64,000 nucleotides of DNA. It comes from Deltaproteobacteria bacterium (GTDB lineage Bacteria; Desulfobacterota; Syntrophobacteria; Syntrophobacterales; Syntrophobacteraceae). The stretch is taken from the NCBI GenBank assembly GCA_012517315.1, contig JAAYVE010000019.1:1-64000 (forward strand), written 5' to 3'. Positions within the stretch are counted from its first letter, which is position 1. Every line of letters begins with the position of its first letter. Below the pieces are notes generated by a model. It worked only from the letters and a program-made list of their open reading frames with translations, did not search any database and was not told the DNA's origin. Below, piece by piece: positions 1,967-17,551 of the stretch. Both the position numbers and the translations under genes were made by a program.

Positions 1967-3295
1967 ATGGTTGTTCTGATTGTCGATAACGATCTGAGGG
2001 AGGTTCAGAACCTTTCCTCGTTTCTCCGGGAACATGGGCATCTGCCCATTGCAACGGATTCCTTCAAGTCCGCGGAGGGCCTGGCCAAGCGTGAAAGGCC
2101 CGGGTTGGTACTGGTGAACCTCAACGGCCACGCGGCACCCGTCATGGAATTCATCCAACTGACCCAACTCATCCAACCGTCTCCCCAAGTGATCGTCACA
2201 ACTCAGAGGCCGAGGCTCGAGGATGCTGTCACAGCCATGAAGATGGGCGCCTACGATTTCTGGGGGAAACCCCTTTCCAAGGAACGTCTGGTTAAGACCA
2301 TCGATTTGTTGGATTCCCCCCTGCAGACCTCCCCGAAGTCAGCTCCGCCCTCCTGCCCGGATATCATCACGCGTGACCCGTCCATGCTGCGACTCAAGGC
2401 CATGGCCCTCAAGGTGGCTGCAAGCAACGCCACCGTGTTCATTCAAGGTGAGAGCGGCACGGGCAAGGAACTCATTGCCCGGTTCATCCACAAAAACAGC
2501 GCCAGAAAAGACCGTCCCTTCGTCGCCCTCAACTGTGCGGCCCTTCCCGAGACGCTCATGGAGAGCGAACTCTTCGGTCACGAAAAAGGCGCATTCACAG
2601 GTGCGATCAAAACGCGGGAAGGAAAATTCGAAACAGCCAATACGGGGACTCTCCTCCTGGACGAGGTCACGGAAATCCCCCTCCACCTCCAGGCCAAATT
2701 GCTGCGGGTCCTCCAGGAGAGCGAAGTGGACCGACTGGGGGGCCGCCATCCCATTCGCGTGGACGTGCGGGTTCTTGCCACAACAAATCTCACCATGGAT
2801 GAAGCCCTCAAGGGGGGACGTTTTAGAAAAGACCTCTATTACAGGCTTAACGTGATCCCCATCAAGATTCCACCCTTGCGGGACCGCCCCGACGACATCC
2901 TCCTCCTCTCCAACCACCTGATCATCCAGTACAACAGGCTTCACGGAGGCTGTGTCAAAGACATTTCGCCCGAAGCCCGGCGAAAGCTGCAGCTGCATCC
3001 CTGGCCTGGAAACGTCCGCGAGCTTCAAAACGTGATCCAGCGGGCCGTGCTCCTCTCCACAAGTGAATCCATCGCCCCGGAACATCTCATCTTCGATGAA
3101 GACGGAGTATCGGAAAGCCCGGCACAGGATCGGGAGTGGACTCTGATGCCCCTCAGTGAAATGGAAAAACGAATGATCCATAAGGCCCTGGACACTGTGG
3201 ACGGCAATCGAACCCGCGCGGCCGAACTTCTGGGCATCAGCGTCCGCACGCTCCGAAACAAGCTCAACGAATACCGGCAGCAAGAGGAGATGTAA
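1967..3295 (+). CDS. Sigma-54-dependent activator, NtrC family, receiver without the phospho-aspartate
   Basis: 442 residues: receiver domain (1-120), AAA+ sigma-54 activation domain (about 130-365), Fis-type helix-turn-helix (about 410-437). Walker A GESGTGKE is at 161-168, an intact GAFTGA loop at 208-213 and Walker B LLLDEV at 229-234. The receiver keeps the acidic pocket (D7, D9) and K101, but the position expected to be the phosphorylated Asp is Asn51 (V-L-V-N-L-N-G), so classical phosphorylation is unlikely. It sits just ahead of the flgB operon, which has a sigma-54 promoter, so it is probably a flagellar master or second-tier activator of the FlrC/FleR/FlgR kind. The ATG start has GGAG 8-11 bases upstream. 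Confidence 0.9.
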   Translation: MVVLIVDNDLREVQNLSSFLREHGHLPIATDSFKSAEGLAKRERPGLVLVNLNGHAAPVMEFIQLTQLIQPSPQVIVTTQRPRLEDAVTAMKMGAYDFWGKPLSKERLVKTIDLLDSPLQTSPKSAPPSCPDIITRDPSMLRLKAMALKVAASNATVFIQGESGTGKELIARFIHKNSARKDRPFVALNCAALPETLMESELFGHEKGAFTGAIKTREGKFETANTGTLLLDEVTEIPLHLQAKLLRVLQESEVDRLGGRHPIRVDVRVLATTNLTMDEALKGGRFRKDLYYRLNVIPIKIPPLRDRPDDILLLSNHLIIQYNRLHGGCVKDISPEARRKLQLHPWPGNVRELQNVIQRAVLLSTSESIAPEHLIFDEDGVSESPAQDREWTLMPLSEMEKRMIHKALDTVDGNRTRAAELLGISVRTLRNKLNEYRQQEEM

Positions 3296-3460: not shown

Positions 3461-3476
3461 TGGTACGCTATTTGCT
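3461..3476 (+). promoter_or_regulatory. Sigma-54 promoter of the flgB operon
   Basis: TGGTACGCTATTTGCT matches the -24/-12 consensus TGGCACG-N4-TTGCW, with GG and GC exactly ten bases apart. The predicted start of transcription near 3487 gives a leader of about 29 bases to the flgB ATG. The site also rules out an upstream-extended start for flgB. Confidence 0.85.
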
Positions 3477-10488: not shown

Positions 10489-10667
10489 ACTCTGGTCTCC
10501 GTCTTCGCTGTCCGCGCCAAAAGTTGTTGATTAGCTGAGCGAAATGATGGAATCTAGGATTCATTCATTCCGGCATCTCCTCCACTGAGGTCGAGAACTG
10601 GAATTGACGGGAGTCCATTCTGTACAGAGGCGGTTCAACGACAGCGTTTCATGCCTTGGGGGACAAG

Positions 10668-12038
10668 ATGGACCGGGTCCTGATTCTTGAAAACGACCAA
10701 GATTGGCAGGGGATTCTCTCCAAAGCCCTTTCCGACAGACTGCAGGTGCATTTCTGGTCTGGTGGCCGTGACCTCCCGGAACGACTGCGGAAAGAGGTTT
10801 TTGAGGTCATCATTCTGGACATCCGGCCAGACCAATTAGCCCGAAACGACTTCCTCAAGACGGTGAAATCCAGGGCTGCGGTCACGCCCATCATCGTCAC
10901 AAGCCAAACGGGGGAACCGGAACTTGTCGTCAAGGCGATAAGAGATGGTGCTTTCGATTTTGTCCCAAAACCCTACACGCCGGAAAAAATCAGGTTGACT
11001 GTCGCCCATGCCCTCGAAAACCGCAGCATGAAGAACGAAATCGATTACCTGCGGCGTGAACAAGACATCATCTACGACTGGAACCGCATTGTGGCCGACA
11101 GTCCCGCCATGAAGAAAGTCATCGCGACGGTCAAGAAGCTGGCCAACACCGATTCGACCCTTCTCATGACAGGGGAGACAGGGACAGGAAAGAGTTTTCT
11201 GTCGGGAACCATCCATTTCAACAGTCACCGCAAGCAGAAGCCTTTCATTAAAGTGAACTGCGCCAACATTCCCGAGACACTTCTTGAAAGTGAATTGTTC
11301 GGGCATGAAAGAGGCGCTTTCACTGATGCCAAGAAAATGCGAGTGGGTCGGTTCGAACAGGCAAACGGGGGAACGGTGTTTCTGGACGAAATCGGAGAAC
11401 TGAGTTTGCCGCTTCAGGCCAAGCTCCTCAGAGTCCTTGAAGAACGCTGCTTCGAGAGACTCGGAGGAAATCAGACCATCTATTCCGACATCCGCATCAT
11501 TGCGGCAACCAATCGCAACGTGGAGGAGATGGTGGCCAGGGGCACCCTCCGCGAAGACCTTTACTACCGCATCAACGTCATCCGGGTGCACCTGCCACCG
11601 CTTCGGGAACGCCCTCAATGCTTCGACCGGATCGCGGAATATCTCCTCGTAAAAAACTGCAGGAACATCAAGAAGTACATCAAGGGATTTTCCCCCGGCG
11701 CCTTGAAACTCCTCAAACAGTACAACTGGCCGGGAAACATCCGGCAGCTTTCCAACACCATCGAACGGGCGGTTCTGCTGGAAGAAACACAAGTGATCCA
11801 GGAAGAGAGCATCTCCCTTCCCCACCCCATCCCCGTTCGTGAGGAAACTGTTCAGGAACCCATTCCCCGGACTCAGGACCTGAAAAAGAACGAAAGAGAC
11901 CTCATTCTCACCGCCCTCGAAAAAAGTCTCTGGATTCAGAAAGATGCCGCCGATCTCCTGGGGATCACGCCAAGAGCCCTCAACTACAAGATCAAGAAGT
12001 TCGGCATCAGTCATCACCGCTGGCGTAAGAACAAGTGA
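10668..12038 (+). CDS. Sigma-54-dependent response regulator, NtrC family, with GAFTDA loop
   Basis: 456 residues: an intact receiver (Asp51 in I-I-L-D-I-R-P, Lys101), an AAA+ domain and a C-terminal Fis-type helix-turn-helix ([16 protein letters not shown]). Walker A GETGTGKS is at 169-176 and Walker B F-L-D-E-I near 239. The sigma-54 contact loop reads GAFTDA (216-221) instead of GAFTGA. The ATG at 10668 follows GGGGGA closely. It stands between the flgB operon and a sigma-54-driven riboswitch gene, so it may activate either. No kinase gene is adjacent on the same strand. Confidence 0.9.
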
Positions 12039-12482
12039 CCGGTCACCCCCCTGAATTCATCTCATGCCATGCCTGCACCCGATTCGAATCGGCGAACCTC
12101 AGAGGAACACAAAAAACCGTCTACCTCCCTCCCTGAGTGCCTGAACGAACTTTGGCAACGATGCAGCCGCGCCAAGAGACTGTTATTCTGTCGCCCTCTC
12201 TCGGCCGACGAGGCATTTCTTTCCGCAATGCGCATGCCTTTGCCCCATTTTCATGCCAATCAGCAATTCAGTTGGCGATAAAATACGATTGCGAAATTCC
12301 ACTTCCACCCCGGTAACCTTTTCCTACTCCGCCACACCAACGCGCAAAAGAATAAGCGTTCTCCCTTTGCGCGTTTTGCCCGCCGCACCTACACGATCCT
12401 AGGCAGGAATTTCTCTCCGGTTCCTTGGCCGCATCTTTCGCCACACATCTGTAAAGCCAATCTCGAAAAGGACTTACATGTA
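12039..12482. other. Non-coding stretch after the second activator gene
   Basis: No convincing gene was found. A 70-codon open frame from 12069 has no ribosome site and no recognisable protein. The stretch holds a 9-bp inverted repeat at 12340-12374 and ends at the sigma-54 promoter of the riboswitch gene. Binding sites for the activator would be expected here. Confidence 0.5.
12340..12374 (+). terminator. Hairpin followed by short T-run, possible terminator
   Basis: ACGCGCAAA at 12340-12348 pairs with TTTGCGCGT at 12366-12374 (9 bp, 17-base loop), followed by TTT. It could end the activator transcript. The long loop and short T-run make it weak. Confidence 0.35.
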
Positions 12483-12498
12483 CGGCACGCAATTTGCT
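12483..12498 (+). promoter_or_regulatory. Sigma-54 promoter upstream of the cyclic di-GMP riboswitch
   Basis: CGGCACGCAATTTGCT matches TGGCACG-N4-TTGCT in all but the first base, with GG and GC ten bases apart. It is the closest match to consensus in the window. Transcription would start near 12509, about 175 bases before the aptamer. Confidence 0.8.
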
Positions 12499-12682
12499 TA
12501 GAAGTCAAGTGCTCGCTGGATGTCACCGGGAAGAAGCGTTCTAGCGAGTCGCTGATCAGGGGCAGAAAGTGTTTGCCACCTGGGACAAGTTCCTGAGAAA
12601 ACTCATGAAAAAGTCATAGAAGAGGCATCCATGGCAAGGCCCGGACCTCCCTTCAAGAGGCCGGGGAAAGTGTAATTCAAAA

Positions 12683-12778
12683 CCGACCGAAAAGGGCAGA
12701 CCATTCGAAAGGGTGGGACGCAAAGCCACTGGCCTAAGTTCCGGGAAACCGGAATACGGTCGCAGGGTTGCCGGCCGG
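12683..12778 (+). promoter_or_regulatory. Cyclic di-GMP class I riboswitch (GEMM-I) aptamer
   Basis: The sequence carries the conserved GEMM-I parts in order. The first arm C-C-A-T-T-C / G-G-G-T-G-G is capped by a GAAA tetraloop (12711-12726 region). Then come GGACGCAAAGCC, the tetraloop receptor G-G-C-C-T-A-A, a second hairpin CCGG-GAAA-CCGG, and the 3' part G-C-A-G-G-G-T-T-G-C-C. Closing stem P1 is CCGACCG (12683-12689) with CGGCCGG (12772-12778), six of seven pairs. Cyclic di-GMP binding should stabilise P1. It lies 62 bases upstream of the secreted-protein gene. Confidence 0.92.
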
Positions 12779-12840
12779 AGAAAGCTCGAGTAGCTCGCCT
12801 CCAGCTGGACTGCTTTGCAGGTCAAACTGGAGGTGTTCCA
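12779..12840 (+). promoter_or_regulatory. Riboswitch expression platform hiding the Shine-Dalgarno
   Basis: CCTCCAG (12798-12804) pairs perfectly with CTGGAGG (12827-12833), which contains the GGAGG ribosome site seven bases before the ATG. The same left arm, extended to 12799-12808, can instead pair with 12771-12780, the 3' strand of aptamer stem P1, at nine of ten positions. The two folds exclude each other. Ligand-bound P1 would free the arm to cover the ribosome site, an OFF switch acting on translation. No T-run follows, so a transcription terminator is unlikely. Confidence 0.7.
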
Positions 12841-15036
12841 ATGATGATTCTTTCCCGTGTATTCCGTCAATCCAAGAAGGTCCGCATCTCTTCTCTCTTT
12901 CCCTTTCTTCTCTTTACAGGATTGCTGCTCTGCTTGTTCAACGGCCATCCGGCCCGGGCGGCCCAGGTGACATTCGCCTGGGATCCCAGCCCCAGCCCCG
13001 TTGCCGGCTACAAACTTTACTACGGCACAACGAACGGCAGCTACACCAACAGCTCCGATGCACAGGCCAATACCACACACGCACTGGATCTGACGGCACC
13101 CACCTACTATGTTGTTGCCAAAGCATACGATAGCGCCGGGAACGAAAGCCCCCCCTCCAACCAGGTCGTTGCACATGCCATGACCGCGTCAGCGGGGTTG
13201 GGAGGGAGCATCAGCCAAAGTGGAACCACATACGCAAGCGAGGGGAGCACCAGGACTTACACCATCACGCCGAGCGGCGGTTATCAAATCGCAGGGGTCA
13301 CAGTGGATGGCGCATCGGTGGGAGCCGTGTCTTCCTATACATTTTCGAACATCACCGGTCCCCACACCATTTCAGCCACTTTCGTGGCCATCCCCACGGT
13401 TTTCACCATCACGGCAAGCGCCGGCCCAAATGGGTCCATTTCTCCATTAGGATCAGTAAACGTCACGGCTGGGACAAACCAGACTTTCACCATCACACCC
13501 AACTCCGGCTACAAGATCGCCTCTCTCACCGTGGACGGCACCACCGTGGCCGCAACCAACTCCTACACCTTCTCAAACGTGACCGCTGCACACTCCATCT
13601 CCGCTACATTCGCCCCCATCACCTACACCATCTCCAGCTCCGCCGGCCCCAACGGCTCCATCTCACCCTCGGGCAGCGTCACTGTCAACCACGGCGCCAG
13701 CCAGTCCTTCACCATCACACCCAACTCCGGCTACAAGATCGCCTCTCTCACCGTGGACGGCACCACCGTGGCCGCAACCAACTCCTACACCTTCTCAAAC
13801 GTGACCGCTGCACACTCCATCTCCGCTACATTCGCTCTCTCCAACCAGCCTCCAGTCGCCAAGGCCGGGCCAGACCAGACAGTCGTGGAAGGAGCCGAAG
13901 TGAAGCTCGTGGGTTCCAACTCGACGGATCCGGAAAACACGCCGCTGACTTATAGCTGGGTTCAGACCGGCGGCACTCAGGTGGTCCTCTCCAGCAGTAC
14001 AGCTGCAGACCCCACTTTCACGGCTCCCACAACAGGGTTGGACGGGACATCCCTCACCTTCAGGCTCACCGTAACCGATCCGGAAGGGCTGAAATCAGAG
14101 GATACCTGTATCATCAATGTCACTCACGTCAACCAGCCTCCAAAGGCCAACGCCGGACTGAGCCAAACAGTTCGGGAAGGGGTTCTCGTCACGCTCGATG
14201 GGATCGAGTCCACTGACCCCGATGACGGAATTGCTTCCTACTCGTGGACTCAAATTCTTGGCACACAGGTGGTTTTGAGCCAAGCTTCCGAGAGCAGTGT
14301 ATCCTTTGAGGCACCTTATGTAAGCAGCCAGGGTGAAGCCCTCACCTTTGAGCTGACCGTGATCGACCGGGGCGGCCTCAAGTCCACTGCCACCTGCATC
14401 GTGAACGTCACGGACAGCGCACCGCCCGTAGCCAGCGCAGGCAAAGACCAAGTCGTCTCTCAAGGCGAATCGGTGACTCTGGACGGCTCCGCATCGTACG
14501 ATCCCGACGGTGTCATCATGACCTATCAATGGGTCCAACTCAGCGGCCCCCCTGTCACCCTCGCCCTTGCCGACGGCACTGGAGTCCGGTTGTCTTTCAA
14601 CGCCCCCGATCTGGGCTACGAGGATGCCCGCCTGGAGTTCGCCCTCACGGTGACCGACGACACGGGCCTTCAGGCAGTGGATAACTGTTCTGTGTACGTG
14701 AAAGGGGATCAAGGTCCCGACCTGATGGGGGAGTGGGTGCGTGTGGCATACAATGGTTCAATTCTGAGTGCAGATTTCAAGATCACCAACTCTGGAAACA
14801 CATCCAGCGCCCGGTTCATCGCGAGTTTCTACCTCTCTGAGGATGGAAGCACGCCGAGGACTCTCATCAAGAGGCTGAGGATCGGTTCCCTTGCAGCGGC
14901 TCATAGTGTGGACGTTTCGGTAAAATACATCGCCAGGGGAATCTCCAAGAAATATCTTCTGGCCATCGTGGACTTTGCAGATGCTATCGTGGAATCCAAG
15001 GAGGACAACAACACGGTTCCGGTGGTGATTCCATAG
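12841..15036 (+). CDS. Secreted multi-domain repeat protein (FN3, bacterial repeats, PKD/Ig-like, CARDB) under cyclic di-GMP control
   Basis: 731 residues. A signal peptide (about 1-40, cut after A-R-A) precedes a fibronectin III-like domain (about 41-113). Three InlB-type bacterial repeats follow (about 114-330; second and third nearly identical), then three PKD/Ig-like domains (about 335-625) with D-Q-T-V or D-Q-V-V starts, then a C-terminal CARDB-type domain. There is no membrane anchor, lipobox or sortase motif, so it is probably secreted or loosely surface-bound, perhaps an adhesin or matrix protein. No enzyme domain is seen. Translation is predicted to fall when cyclic di-GMP is high. 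Confidence 0.88.
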   Translation: MMILSRVFRQSKKVRISSLFPFLLFTGLLLCLFNGHPARAAQVTFAWDPSPSPVAGYKLYYGTTNGSYTNSSDAQANTTHALDLTAPTYYVVAKAYDSAGNESPPSNQVVAHAMTASAGLGGSISQSGTTYASEGSTRTYTITPSGGYQIAGVTVDGASVGAVSSYTFSNITGPHTISATFVAIPTVFTITASAGPNGSISPLGSVNVTAGTNQTFTITPNSGYKIASLTVDGTTVAATNSYTFSNVTAAHSISATFAPITYTISSSAGPNGSISPSGSVTVNHGASQSFTITPNSGYKIASLTVDGTTVAATNSYTFSNVTAAHSISATFALSNQPPVAKAGPDQTVVEGAEVKLVGSNSTDPENTPLTYSWVQTGGTQVVLSSSTAADPTFTAPTTGLDGTSLTFRLTVTDPEGLKSEDTCIINVTHVNQPPKANAGLSQTVREGVLVTLDGIESTDPDDGIASYSWTQILGTQVVLSQASESSVSFEAPYVSSQGEALTFELTVIDRGGLKSTATCIVNVTDSAPPVASAGKDQVVSQGESVTLDGSASYDPDGVIMTYQWVQLSGPPVTLALADGTGVRLSFNAPDLGYEDARLEFALTVTDDTGLQAVDNCSVYVKGDQGPDLMGEWVRVAYNGSILSADFKITNSGNTSSARFIASFYLSEDGSTPRTLIKRLRIGSLAAAHSVDVSVKYIARGISKKYLLAIVDFADAIVESKEDNNTVPVVIP
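13486..13613 (+). repeat. Exact 128-base direct repeat, copy 1
   Basis: Identical base for base to 13708-13835, 222 bases downstream and in the same frame. It encodes the core of one bacterial repeat domain (from residue 216). The identity at synonymous sites points to recent duplication or gene conversion. Confidence 0.95.
13708..13835 (+). repeat. Exact 128-base direct repeat, copy 2
   Basis: Second copy of the 13486-13613 repeat, encoding the same domain core from residue 290. A diverged third copy lies upstream around 13255-13390. Confidence 0.95.
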
Positions 15037-15178: not shown

Positions 15179-17431
15179 TCAAGAAAGAATGCGTTCCCTG
15201 CGATGGGGAAGAGTGATCCTTAAGATGAGGCGGTCCGGTTCTTCCCGCACCAGGTCGATCAACCCCTGGTGCTTGTGAATGATCATCTTGGCCAGAGGCA
15301 AATCCAACACATCACTGCGTTCCAGTCGGCTGGTGAAGGGGTAGAAAAAATGCTCGATCTCATCATCGGAAACCCTTGTGCCCCGCACGGTCATCTCAAG
15401 ATGCACCACATGGTCGCCAGGGTACGTGGTTACCTCTACTTTTCTTCCTTGGGGACAGATATCGGCGAGAGCGTAAAAGATCGTCCGCAATAAAGCCCGA
15501 AAAAGCTCCTTGTCGAGGGGTACCAAGGGCAGATTTGCGGAGAGATTCATTTCCAAACTGACGGACCGCTCCCGAAAGACCACATCCTGATCCTCCAGGA
15601 CCTGAATGAGCAGTTCATTGAGAGAGGAGGTTTCCGGAAGGATATGGAAAGGCTTGAGGTAGGCCAGGGTCTTCTCAAGGATTTTTTCCAGGCGCCCGAT
15701 CTCATGGACGATGATTTTCACCTTTTCGCGATTGACGTCTTCCTCGGCCAGGGCATCCAGAACGCGCCTGGCAAAACCTCCCGCGGCCACCAGAGGGTTT
15801 CGGATTTCATGGGCCAGCCTGGCGGAGATCTCGCTGAGAGTTTTCAGTTCCTCCGTCTGGATGATCTGCTGCTGCAGGTGGTGCCTGTCCGTGACGTTGA
15901 CGAGAAATCCGTCAACGGTCTCCACATGGCCTTGTTCATCGAAGACAGGAAGTGCATGGTCCAGGACAATGACGAGCTTTCCGTCGGGTCGTGCGACACG
16001 GTATTCGGCTTTGAACTCACGCCCTTCGTGGAGGCAGCGGTCCATCAGGGGCCAAATAGACGGCCTGTCCTCAGGCCATACCTTTTCTTTCCAAAAAGAC
16101 TCATCGCCCAAGACTCTCTCCTGGGAAATGCCCAGCAGGTCTTCCACAAACTGGTTGACGAAGATGGTCTTTCCGCTTCCGAGAAGCCGATATACCACAA
16201 GAGGGACGTTTTCCACCAGGGTGCGGTATTTCTCTTCCGATTCCCGCAATGCGCGCGTACGCAAGTGAACCATGTATTCGAGGTTCACCGTGTAATCCTT
16301 GATTTTCTTTCTTGAATCTTCGAGGGATTGAAGCATCTCTTCCAAGGCTTCGGCGAGGACGCTCAATTCCCCGGATGGTTTGGCCTTTAGATGACGAACT
16401 TCCTGCCCCGAAGCAATGTCCCTCGCAAAACGGACCATTTCCCCGATGGGCTTGCTGAAGTATCTGCTAATGAAGTAAATAGCTCCGACGGAGAGAGCCA
16501 TTCCCAGAACGCCAACCCAGAGCATGAGCTTGCGATAGCGGTTGATGACGGAAAGGGTTTCCGTCCTTCTGGCGCAGAATTCCACCAGAGCGATGGTGTT
16601 GCCGCGGTAATCCCTGACAGATCGCACCAGGATGGAATAGGGTACACCGGAAATCTCTTCCGTCAGGAGTTCCGTTCCTTGCTGCAGGTAAACCTTTGCG
16701 TATATGGGGGCCGATCTCTCAATGGGCTCTGGAAAGGTGGTGGCAAGAGTAGTGAAGGTGTTGATGTTTTCATCGGGAATCAGGATGGTAAGCTCTACGC
16801 TGAATTGATTCTTGATTTCTTCCAGCAGAGGTCTGCCGAAGCTGAAGCCGATTTCCACAGTCCCTGTCAGTTGCCCCTCGTGAAACACCGGAGCGACCCC
16901 TCGAATCCCGTAGCCGGTGATGCCCTTCTCTATTCCAAACGTTTCTTTTCGCTGGCTGATGGCATCCAGTATGGTTTGCCGGTAATGAAGATCGTCCCCG
17001 AAAAGGTAGAGCATTTGCATCCGCACGAAATTCCGGGGGGGGATGGTGTGGAAATTGAACTGCCTGATTCCATAATGATTCCTCATGAAAATGAAAGCCG
17101 AGTAGCAGAGCTGCACGAGACGGTATCGGTCCTGCTGCGCGAGAGCTCCTGCCACCTCGGGATTGAGAGCGAAACTGGAGGCGAGGCTGACGGCCCACTG
17201 ACCCTGCAATGCAATGTTGTGATCCAGCGCCTGACTATACCCCTGAAGGCGCTCCCGTTCTTCCTGGCGAATGATCTCCCTCTGGCTGAGGATGCCCAAT
17301 TCCACGAGGGATGAAGTTCCAAGAAGGGCAAGGCAAAAAAAGGCAATGCTCAATCGGAAACGAAGCGGCATTTGAACGATGCGCTCAACAAGCCCCCCTT
17401 GCCTCTCCGATTGTTTCCGCTCTTCTTTCAT
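15179..17431 (-). CDS. Membrane sensor histidine kinase with degenerate ATP-binding domain
   Basis: About 750 residues: membrane helix (about 25-45), periplasmic double-Cache-type sensor (G-D-D-L and G-I-R-G-V-A-P-V-F motifs), second helix (about 320-345), HAMP, PAS (about 415-520) and a HisKA domain with intact H-box A-H-E-I-R-N-P-L (His541). The CA domain is present but lacks its key motifs: the N-box Asn is Tyr (T-I-F-Y-A-L), the G1 region reads V-R-G-T-R-V and the G2 region D-L-P-L-A. ATP binding is doubtful, so it may be a pseudokinase or act in a heterodimer. It lies downstream of gltX. The start is uncertain; a GTG at 17512 would add 27 residues. Confidence 0.85.
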   Translation of the reverse strand: MKEERKQSERQGGLVERIVQMPLRFRLSIAFFCLALLGTSSLVELGILSQREIIRQEERERLQGYSQALDHNIALQGQWAVSLASSFALNPEVAGALAQQDRYRLVQLCYSAFIFMRNHYGIRQFNFHTIPPRNFVRMQMLYLFGDDLHYRQTILDAISQRKETFGIEKGITGYGIRGVAPVFHEGQLTGTVEIGFSFGRPLLEEIKNQFSVELTILIPDENINTFTTLATTFPEPIERSAPIYAKVYLQQGTELLTEEISGVPYSILVRSVRDYRGNTIALVEFCARRTETLSVINRYRKLMLWVGVLGMALSVGAIYFISRYFSKPIGEMVRFARDIASGQEVRHLKAKPSGELSVLAEALEEMLQSLEDSRKKIKDYTVNLEYMVHLRTRALRESEEKYRTLVENVPLVVYRLLGSGKTIFVNQFVEDLLGISQERVLGDESFWKEKVWPEDRPSIWPLMDRCLHEGREFKAEYRVARPDGKLVIVLDHALPVFDEQGHVETVDGFLVNVTDRHHLQQQIIQTEELKTLSEISARLAHEIRNPLVAAGGFARRVLDALAEEDVNREKVKIIVHEIGRLEKILEKTLAYLKPFHILPETSSLNELLIQVLEDQDVVFRERSVSLEMNLSANLPLVPLDKELFRALLRTIFYALADICPQGRKVEVTTYPGDHVVHLEMTVRGTRVSDDEIEHFFYPFTSRLERSDVLDLPLAKMIIHKHQGLIDLVREEPDRLILRITLPHRRERILS

Positions 17432-17551
17432 CTTGCAAGCCCTGTATTTGCCTTGAATCACTTGCGCTTTGCCCGTTGCGAAACCAGTGATCTCCCTGAA
17501 ACGTTCATTCACAAGGATTGACGCCCGCCTCTCAATGCTTTGAAACGCAGT

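Follow-up and report, generated by a model that had tools for sequence, protein, structure and literature searches.

A sigma-54 promoter paired with a c-di-GMP-I riboswitch upstream of secreted fn3 proteins recurs across a bacterial phylum

Why should a single secreted protein gene stand behind both a sigma-54 promoter and a cyclic di-GMP (c-di-GMP) riboswitch, and is this arrangement peculiar to one genome or part of a wider pattern? The question arose from the window, i.e.: the whole stretch of 64,000 nucleotides analysed here (positions 1 to 64,000 of contig JAAYVE010000019.1, from a Deltaproteobacteria bacterium of the phylum Desulfobacterota). An earlier note on this DNA had described a sigma-54 site followed by a GEMM-I aptamer and a secreted protein gene, placed right after an NtrC-type gene (10656-12038) and inside a flagellar region. 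Elements and order proved correct, and the upstream neighbours were confirmed, with flgB-C...fliF-G-H-I-J present. The gene itself (12841-15036, forward strand) is an ORF of 731 aa whose ATG at 12841 lies 65 nt after the end of the aptamer. By its Pfam domains, the product has a hydrophobic signal-like N-terminus, an fn3-like domain scoring just below the Pfam cut-off, InlB B-repeats, three K319L-like PKD domains and CARDB. It ends with CARDB and ...EDNNTVPVVIP, and Pfam families for PEP-CTERM or sortase C-terminal sorting signals found no match. Searches of solved structures returned PKD-domain relatives only (KIAA0319L) and gave no functional clue. The protein is probably exported and would have an adhesin-like or carbohydrate-binding role outside the cell.

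The promoter, CGGCACGCAATTTGCT, occupies 12483-12498 on the forward strand. It matches TGGCACG-N4-TTGCW at 11/12 positions with GG-N10-GC intact, in agreement with the earlier description of a -24/-12 element one base off consensus. From the geometry of the site, transcription is predicted to start at about 12508, close to the 12509 proposed in the earlier note, which would leave an untranslated leader (12508-12684, forward strand) that is longer than in most relatives according to our list of distances. The sister species (G001) has AGGCACCAAATTTGCT at the aligned position, 204 nt before its aptamer versus 202 nt in the window; when the two leaders are aligned, few islands prove conserved, and the site belongs to one of them. 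Another island shared with G001, at 12283-12329 (no strand assigned), is found 150-200 nt upstream of the promoter and is a tentative candidate for the activator-binding region. AATTAC-like words were considered as the binding motif and rejected, for they recur in relatives with no clear excess over shuffles. The genome has one rpoN gene. For comparison, the likely sigma-54 promoter of the flgB operon, TGGTACGCTATTTGCT, is a one-mismatch site at 3461-3476 (forward strand), upstream of the start of FlgB homology; an FlbD-like activator gene (1967-3295) precedes it.

The covariance search proposed in the earlier note returned RF01051 at 12685-12775 (forward strand), scoring 77.7 bits where the gathering threshold is 35 (cmscan, E 1.4e-13). 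This match covers the full model (1-87) and is the sole Rfam match in the window. At the ligand-selecting position the aptamer has a G: in our own alignment to the Vc2 numbering the base (sequence AAAAGGGCAGACC) is G20. Specificity for cGAMP was rejected because of this G20, an A being the cGAMP type. As read from the sequence, the 3' strand of the closing helix lies at 12771-12780 (forward strand), with CGGCCGG (12772-12778) pairing with CCGACCG (12683-12689); in folds computed with the strand free or held, it can pair alternatively with 12799-12808. The Shine-Dalgarno sequence, CTGGAGGT (12827-12834, forward strand), is conserved in G001 and stands 6 nt before the ATG. In the folds, CTGGAGG (12827-12833), which contains it, sits in a 7-bp hairpin with the anti-Shine-Dalgarno CCTCCAG (12798-12804, forward strand). 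Transcription termination was rejected as the mechanism, with no terminator-like site from promoter to ATG; this, together with the hairpin, supports the earlier proposal that c-di-GMP acts on translation. The genome encodes 10 GGDEF domains.

The earlier note had called the pairing of promoter and aptamer unusual, and in this it was wrong. A first set comprised the sequence around 93 GEMM-I aptamers of the class, in the window's own genome and in related ones. A sigma-54 match of at least 10/12 was found on the sense strand within 350 nt upstream of the aptamer at 23 of these loci; the controls gave 5 (antisense), 1 and 3 (reversed pattern), 0 (farther upstream) and 2 (downstream). A second, independent set of 85 GEMM-I loci from outside the class gave 25 such matches, against 2, 1, 0, 1 and 2 in the controls. 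Fisher tests against the pooled controls yielded p values of 8e-12 (class) and 5.5e-16 (outside the class); these overstate independence, since the genomes are related, and the two separate sets and a test of spacing serve as safeguards. In the latter, an N4 spacer gave a strong match at most 140 nt upstream in 42 of the 178 loci, while spacers of N1-N3 and N5-N8 gave 0-3. When 395 genomes of the phylum were searched with a composite pattern that permitted 17 spacings, there were 7 matches, all of them (7/7) with the sigma-54 spacing. A looser composite scan of named genomes was discarded, the matches being mostly due to chance; a named example of the pairing is locus L144, from a Deltaproteobacteria MAG. 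The distance from a strong site to the aptamer is mostly 33-70 nt, and a longer gap of 202-213 nt is seen in the window, in G001 and at one locus of G002; the unusual distance of the window's promoter is a point against it. The sigma-54/GEMM-I pairing is thus a phylum-wide pattern, and sigma-54 transcription of the secreted protein gene, as first proposed, gains support from the conserved site and from this non-random pairing.

The genes that follow the paired elements have much in common: they mostly encode secreted proteins opening with the same fn3 domain. Such ORFs (AAQVTFAWDPSP...GYKLYYGTSS) come after 52 of the 167 GEMM-I loci with an assignable ORF, and a sigma-54 site of at least 10/12 is present at 30 of these 52. 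An fn3-opening ORF is associated with the promoter, scored here as a match of 9/12 or better within 130 nt, at an odds ratio of 11 (p 1e-10). Two members from other families have an H-type lectin match above the Pfam score cut-off (one of them weakly), and a beta-helix protein gene adjoins both, which points to a putative role in extracellular binding. Type IV pilin-like ORFs were found after a sigma-54 site and a GEMM-I aptamer at L039 (G011:C50) and L322 (G263:C241), so the pairing may serve pili as well.

We then considered which protein could drive the promoter. The gene at 10656-12038 (forward strand; Pfam Sigma54_activat, Response_reg and HTH_8) encodes a receiver, an AAA+ domain and a Fis-type HTH, as expected of an NtrC-type protein. 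Orthologues with 53-85% identity lie directly upstream of the promoter-riboswitch-fn3 unit in G001, G011, G031, G033 and G035, G027 and G008 have partial matches in that place, and G092, outside the class, carries the orthologue divergently. In eight genomes of the set of relatives, the window's among them, a GEMM-I gene is immediately preceded by an orthologue of the activator. A profile search set 23 orthologues, all scoring 647 bits or more, apart from the next best protein at 495 bits. The unit is present in 17 of the 23 genomes with an orthologue versus 4 of the 37 without (p 9e-7, ignoring phylogeny); among genomes with GEMM-I only, the figures are 17/22 versus 4/17 (p 0.001, again ignoring phylogeny). 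There are exceptions: in four genomes the unit occurs but no activator orthologue does, and six have the activator without a unit as scored. An activator family is therefore linked to promoter-riboswitch units, and the 10656-12038 product is likely the dedicated activator of the 12483 promoter, on which it would act from upstream. A point against this role is that its sigma-54 contact loop reads GAFTDA, as in G001, and not GAFTGA as in four orthologues, although GAFTDA is listed among the variants expected to keep activity in Desulfovibrio vulgaris (PMC4641369). The phospho-acceptor aspartate of the receiver is apparently missing in the four GAFTGA orthologues (G011, G031, G033 and G035). A large sensor histidine kinase (dCache, HAMP, PAS, HisKA) is encoded at 15179-17512 on the reverse strand, convergent with the fn3 gene. 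It is a possible partner of the regulator, but no similar kinase was found near the promoter-riboswitch loci of relatives. In L347, L352, L355 and L356, all from relatives, there is reverse-strand coding of approximately 110-120 codons between the activator and the fn3 gene, and these frames look alike by eye.

From the modest sequence match one could suspect that the 12483 site is fortuitous, the gene being read from another promoter or from upstream. Indeed, sites with at most one mismatch number 38 genome-wide versus 31 for the reversed pattern, i.e. near chance, and the sequence alone is a modest argument. The site is convincing because of its location and its conservation: site and distance are kept in the sister species, promoter and aptamer are paired in a strongly non-random manner across the phylum, and a scan of the sense strand of the leader found no sigma-70-like site. 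We regard a chance match as very improbable. A different possibility is that a flagellar sigma-54 activator, such as the FlbD-like protein, switches the promoter, which would place the secreted protein in the flagellar regulon. The earlier note had likewise held that the gene follows the flagellar programme. In the window's genus the gene does come after fliI-fliJ-motE-NtrC, and a similar site precedes flgB; other families, however, have the unit and the same NtrC-type gene with no flagellar genes detected. In the wider surroundings read for G011, G031, G033 and G035, none was detected around the unit, whose identified neighbours include ribBA (G031 and G033), ribH and nusB (G031) or an epimerase (G011). 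Among the orthologues examined, mostly with 1.5 kb flanks, the fliI-fliJ-motE neighbourhood is common to the same genus only. The 10656-12038 product thus lacks the association with flagellar genes across these genomes that a regulator of the flagellar FlrC/FlbD type would show. Moreover, the FlbD-like protein is just 35-46% identical to the regulators beside paired loci, versus 53-85% between the NtrC-type protein and its orthologues there. The regulator thus goes with the riboswitch gene and not with flagella, the flagellar setting is specific to the window's genus, and the claim of a flagellar programme is unsupported; control by a flagellar activator is improbable.

The direction of the switch was approached through the cost of opening the Shine-Dalgarno sequence in models with the 3' strand of the closing helix (P1) free or held. 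Across 33 related fn3 loci the mean cost was 7.3 kcal/mol with the strand free and 11.3 with the strand held; it rose by more than 1 kcal/mol in 25 loci and fell by more than 1 in none. Among the fn3 loci this effect disappeared once the P1 3' strand was permuted (p 3e-6); other GEMM-I loci showed no significant effect of the strand. Besides, the anti-Shine-Dalgarno and Shine-Dalgarno flanks match each other better within their own locus than between loci (20 loci, 0/5000 permutations; outer flanks alone, p 0.007). These 20 loci are those with an exact anti-Shine-Dalgarno, and the best extension was chosen among several sites, which slightly favours a match. The contrast of the window itself is small (11.3 versus 13.9 kcal/mol, permutation rank 0.07) and that of G001 almost nil (13.3 versus 14.3 kcal/mol, rank 0.53), so that the case for OFF comes more from the family than from the window. 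Both the modelling and the covariation of the helix point this way, and for the family the riboswitch is probably a translational OFF switch. The opposite sign, in which c-di-GMP would turn translation ON, as for a biofilm adhesin, and sigma-54 would supply the transcript, is unlikely. In its favour, both models of the window leave the Shine-Dalgarno strongly paired, closely similar aptamers may work as ON or OFF switches (PMC9262584), and Bc2, through which GEMM-I controls a collagen adhesin of Bacillus, is an ON switch (PMC4933901). Against it stands the permutation-controlled result that, with the closing helix held, the Shine-Dalgarno becomes harder to open in 25 of 33 loci and easier in none.

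With the OFF direction as the preferred sign, the locus could work as follows. The NtrC-type protein (10656-12038) would bind upstream and drive sigma-54 RNA polymerase at 12483-12498, yielding an mRNA with a long leader and the c-di-GMP-I aptamer. Once c-di-GMP is bound the closing helix would form and hold its 3' strand, leaving CCTCCAG free to cover the Shine-Dalgarno, and we propose that translation would therefore stop. At low c-di-GMP the 3' strand would compete for the anti-Shine-Dalgarno, and the ribosome site would open more easily. Synthesis of the protein would therefore require, in this proposal, both an active activator and low c-di-GMP; production in low-c-di-GMP cells would be compatible with the predicted OFF switch. 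We find it reasonably probable that the locus is such a two-input unit, an activator-driven sigma-54 promoter joined to a c-di-GMP OFF switch on a secreted protein. Opinion is evenly balanced on the broader idea of a phylum-wide regulon, in which one activator family would transcribe secreted fn3 proteins from an inherited activator-AND-NOT-c-di-GMP cassette. Studies of riboswitches usually leave aside the promoter from which the RNA is made; in this unit, promoter type and riboswitch are passed on as a pair, at a typical spacing and accompanied by a likely cognate activator. The arrangement would be a natural two-input gate joining the signal of the activator to c-di-GMP. Secreted fn3 proteins form a large family in these environmental bacteria whose roles are uncharacterised, and the arrangement offers a way into them; it would also allow targets to be predicted for a family of sigma-54 activators that is likewise uncharacterised.

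Other riboswitch arrangements were observed in the same genomes and their relatives. At L003 (G000:C3), in the window's genome, a cobalamin riboswitch (952-1148) is followed by a terminator-like hairpin with a T-run and then by a second aptamer (1502-1577), a c-di-GMP-I-GGC variant (RF03167) placed before a PEP-CTERM-like protein. AdoCbl/c-di-GMP-I tandems have already been reported, and the GGC variant goes unmentioned in the accessible part of that source (PMC9481103). The third GEMM-I of the genome (L002, 1501-1580, G000:C7) precedes a short PEP-CTERM-like secreted protein and has no good sigma-54 site. Tandem GEMM-I aptamers, in two or three copies, occur in several genomes of the phylum (L094, L334, L312 and L286), and the L286 tandem precedes an fn3-opening protein. 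In one genus (g7; L111, L116, L118, L119 and L124) GEMM-I lies before a conserved protein of 130-150 aa, MTGPDRITSVLKAY...KSKQIILAYEKLT, the N-terminal half of which looks FlgM-like.

How does the unit compare with known systems? We found no description of a sigma-54 promoter paired with GEMM-I in the literature searched, which mostly excluded subscription papers. Like other RF01051 riboswitches, that of the window has a full-length aptamer, the ligand-selecting G and a predicted translational platform before a surface or secreted protein gene; unlike them as described, it is paired with a sigma-54 promoter. In Bacillus thuringiensis, Bc2 also places GEMM-I upstream of an adhesin, the collagen adhesin, but it acts as a transcriptional ON switch by antitermination, and the accessible part of the report mentions no sigma-54 element (PMC4933901). 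The case of KN400_1971 in Geobacter sulfurreducens, from a probably related lineage, resembles the window in having a GEMM riboswitch before a fibronectin-III protein, and differs in that neither a sigma-54 promoter nor an activator is reported in the part of the source available (PMC13194489). Sigma-54 control of cell-exterior genes was already known (PMC4641369), and the sigma-54 regulons of Desulfovibrio vulgaris and Geobacter sulfurreducens share with the window NtrC-type activators, the GAFTDA variant, the -24/-12 consensus TTGGCACGGTTTTTGCT and targets at the cell exterior, whereas riboswitches are unmentioned there (PMC4641369, PMC2725144). The parts, i.e.: an RF01051 aptamer, a sigma-54 promoter and an NtrC-type activator, are of known kinds; it is the pairing of promoter and aptamer for which our searches returned no precedent.
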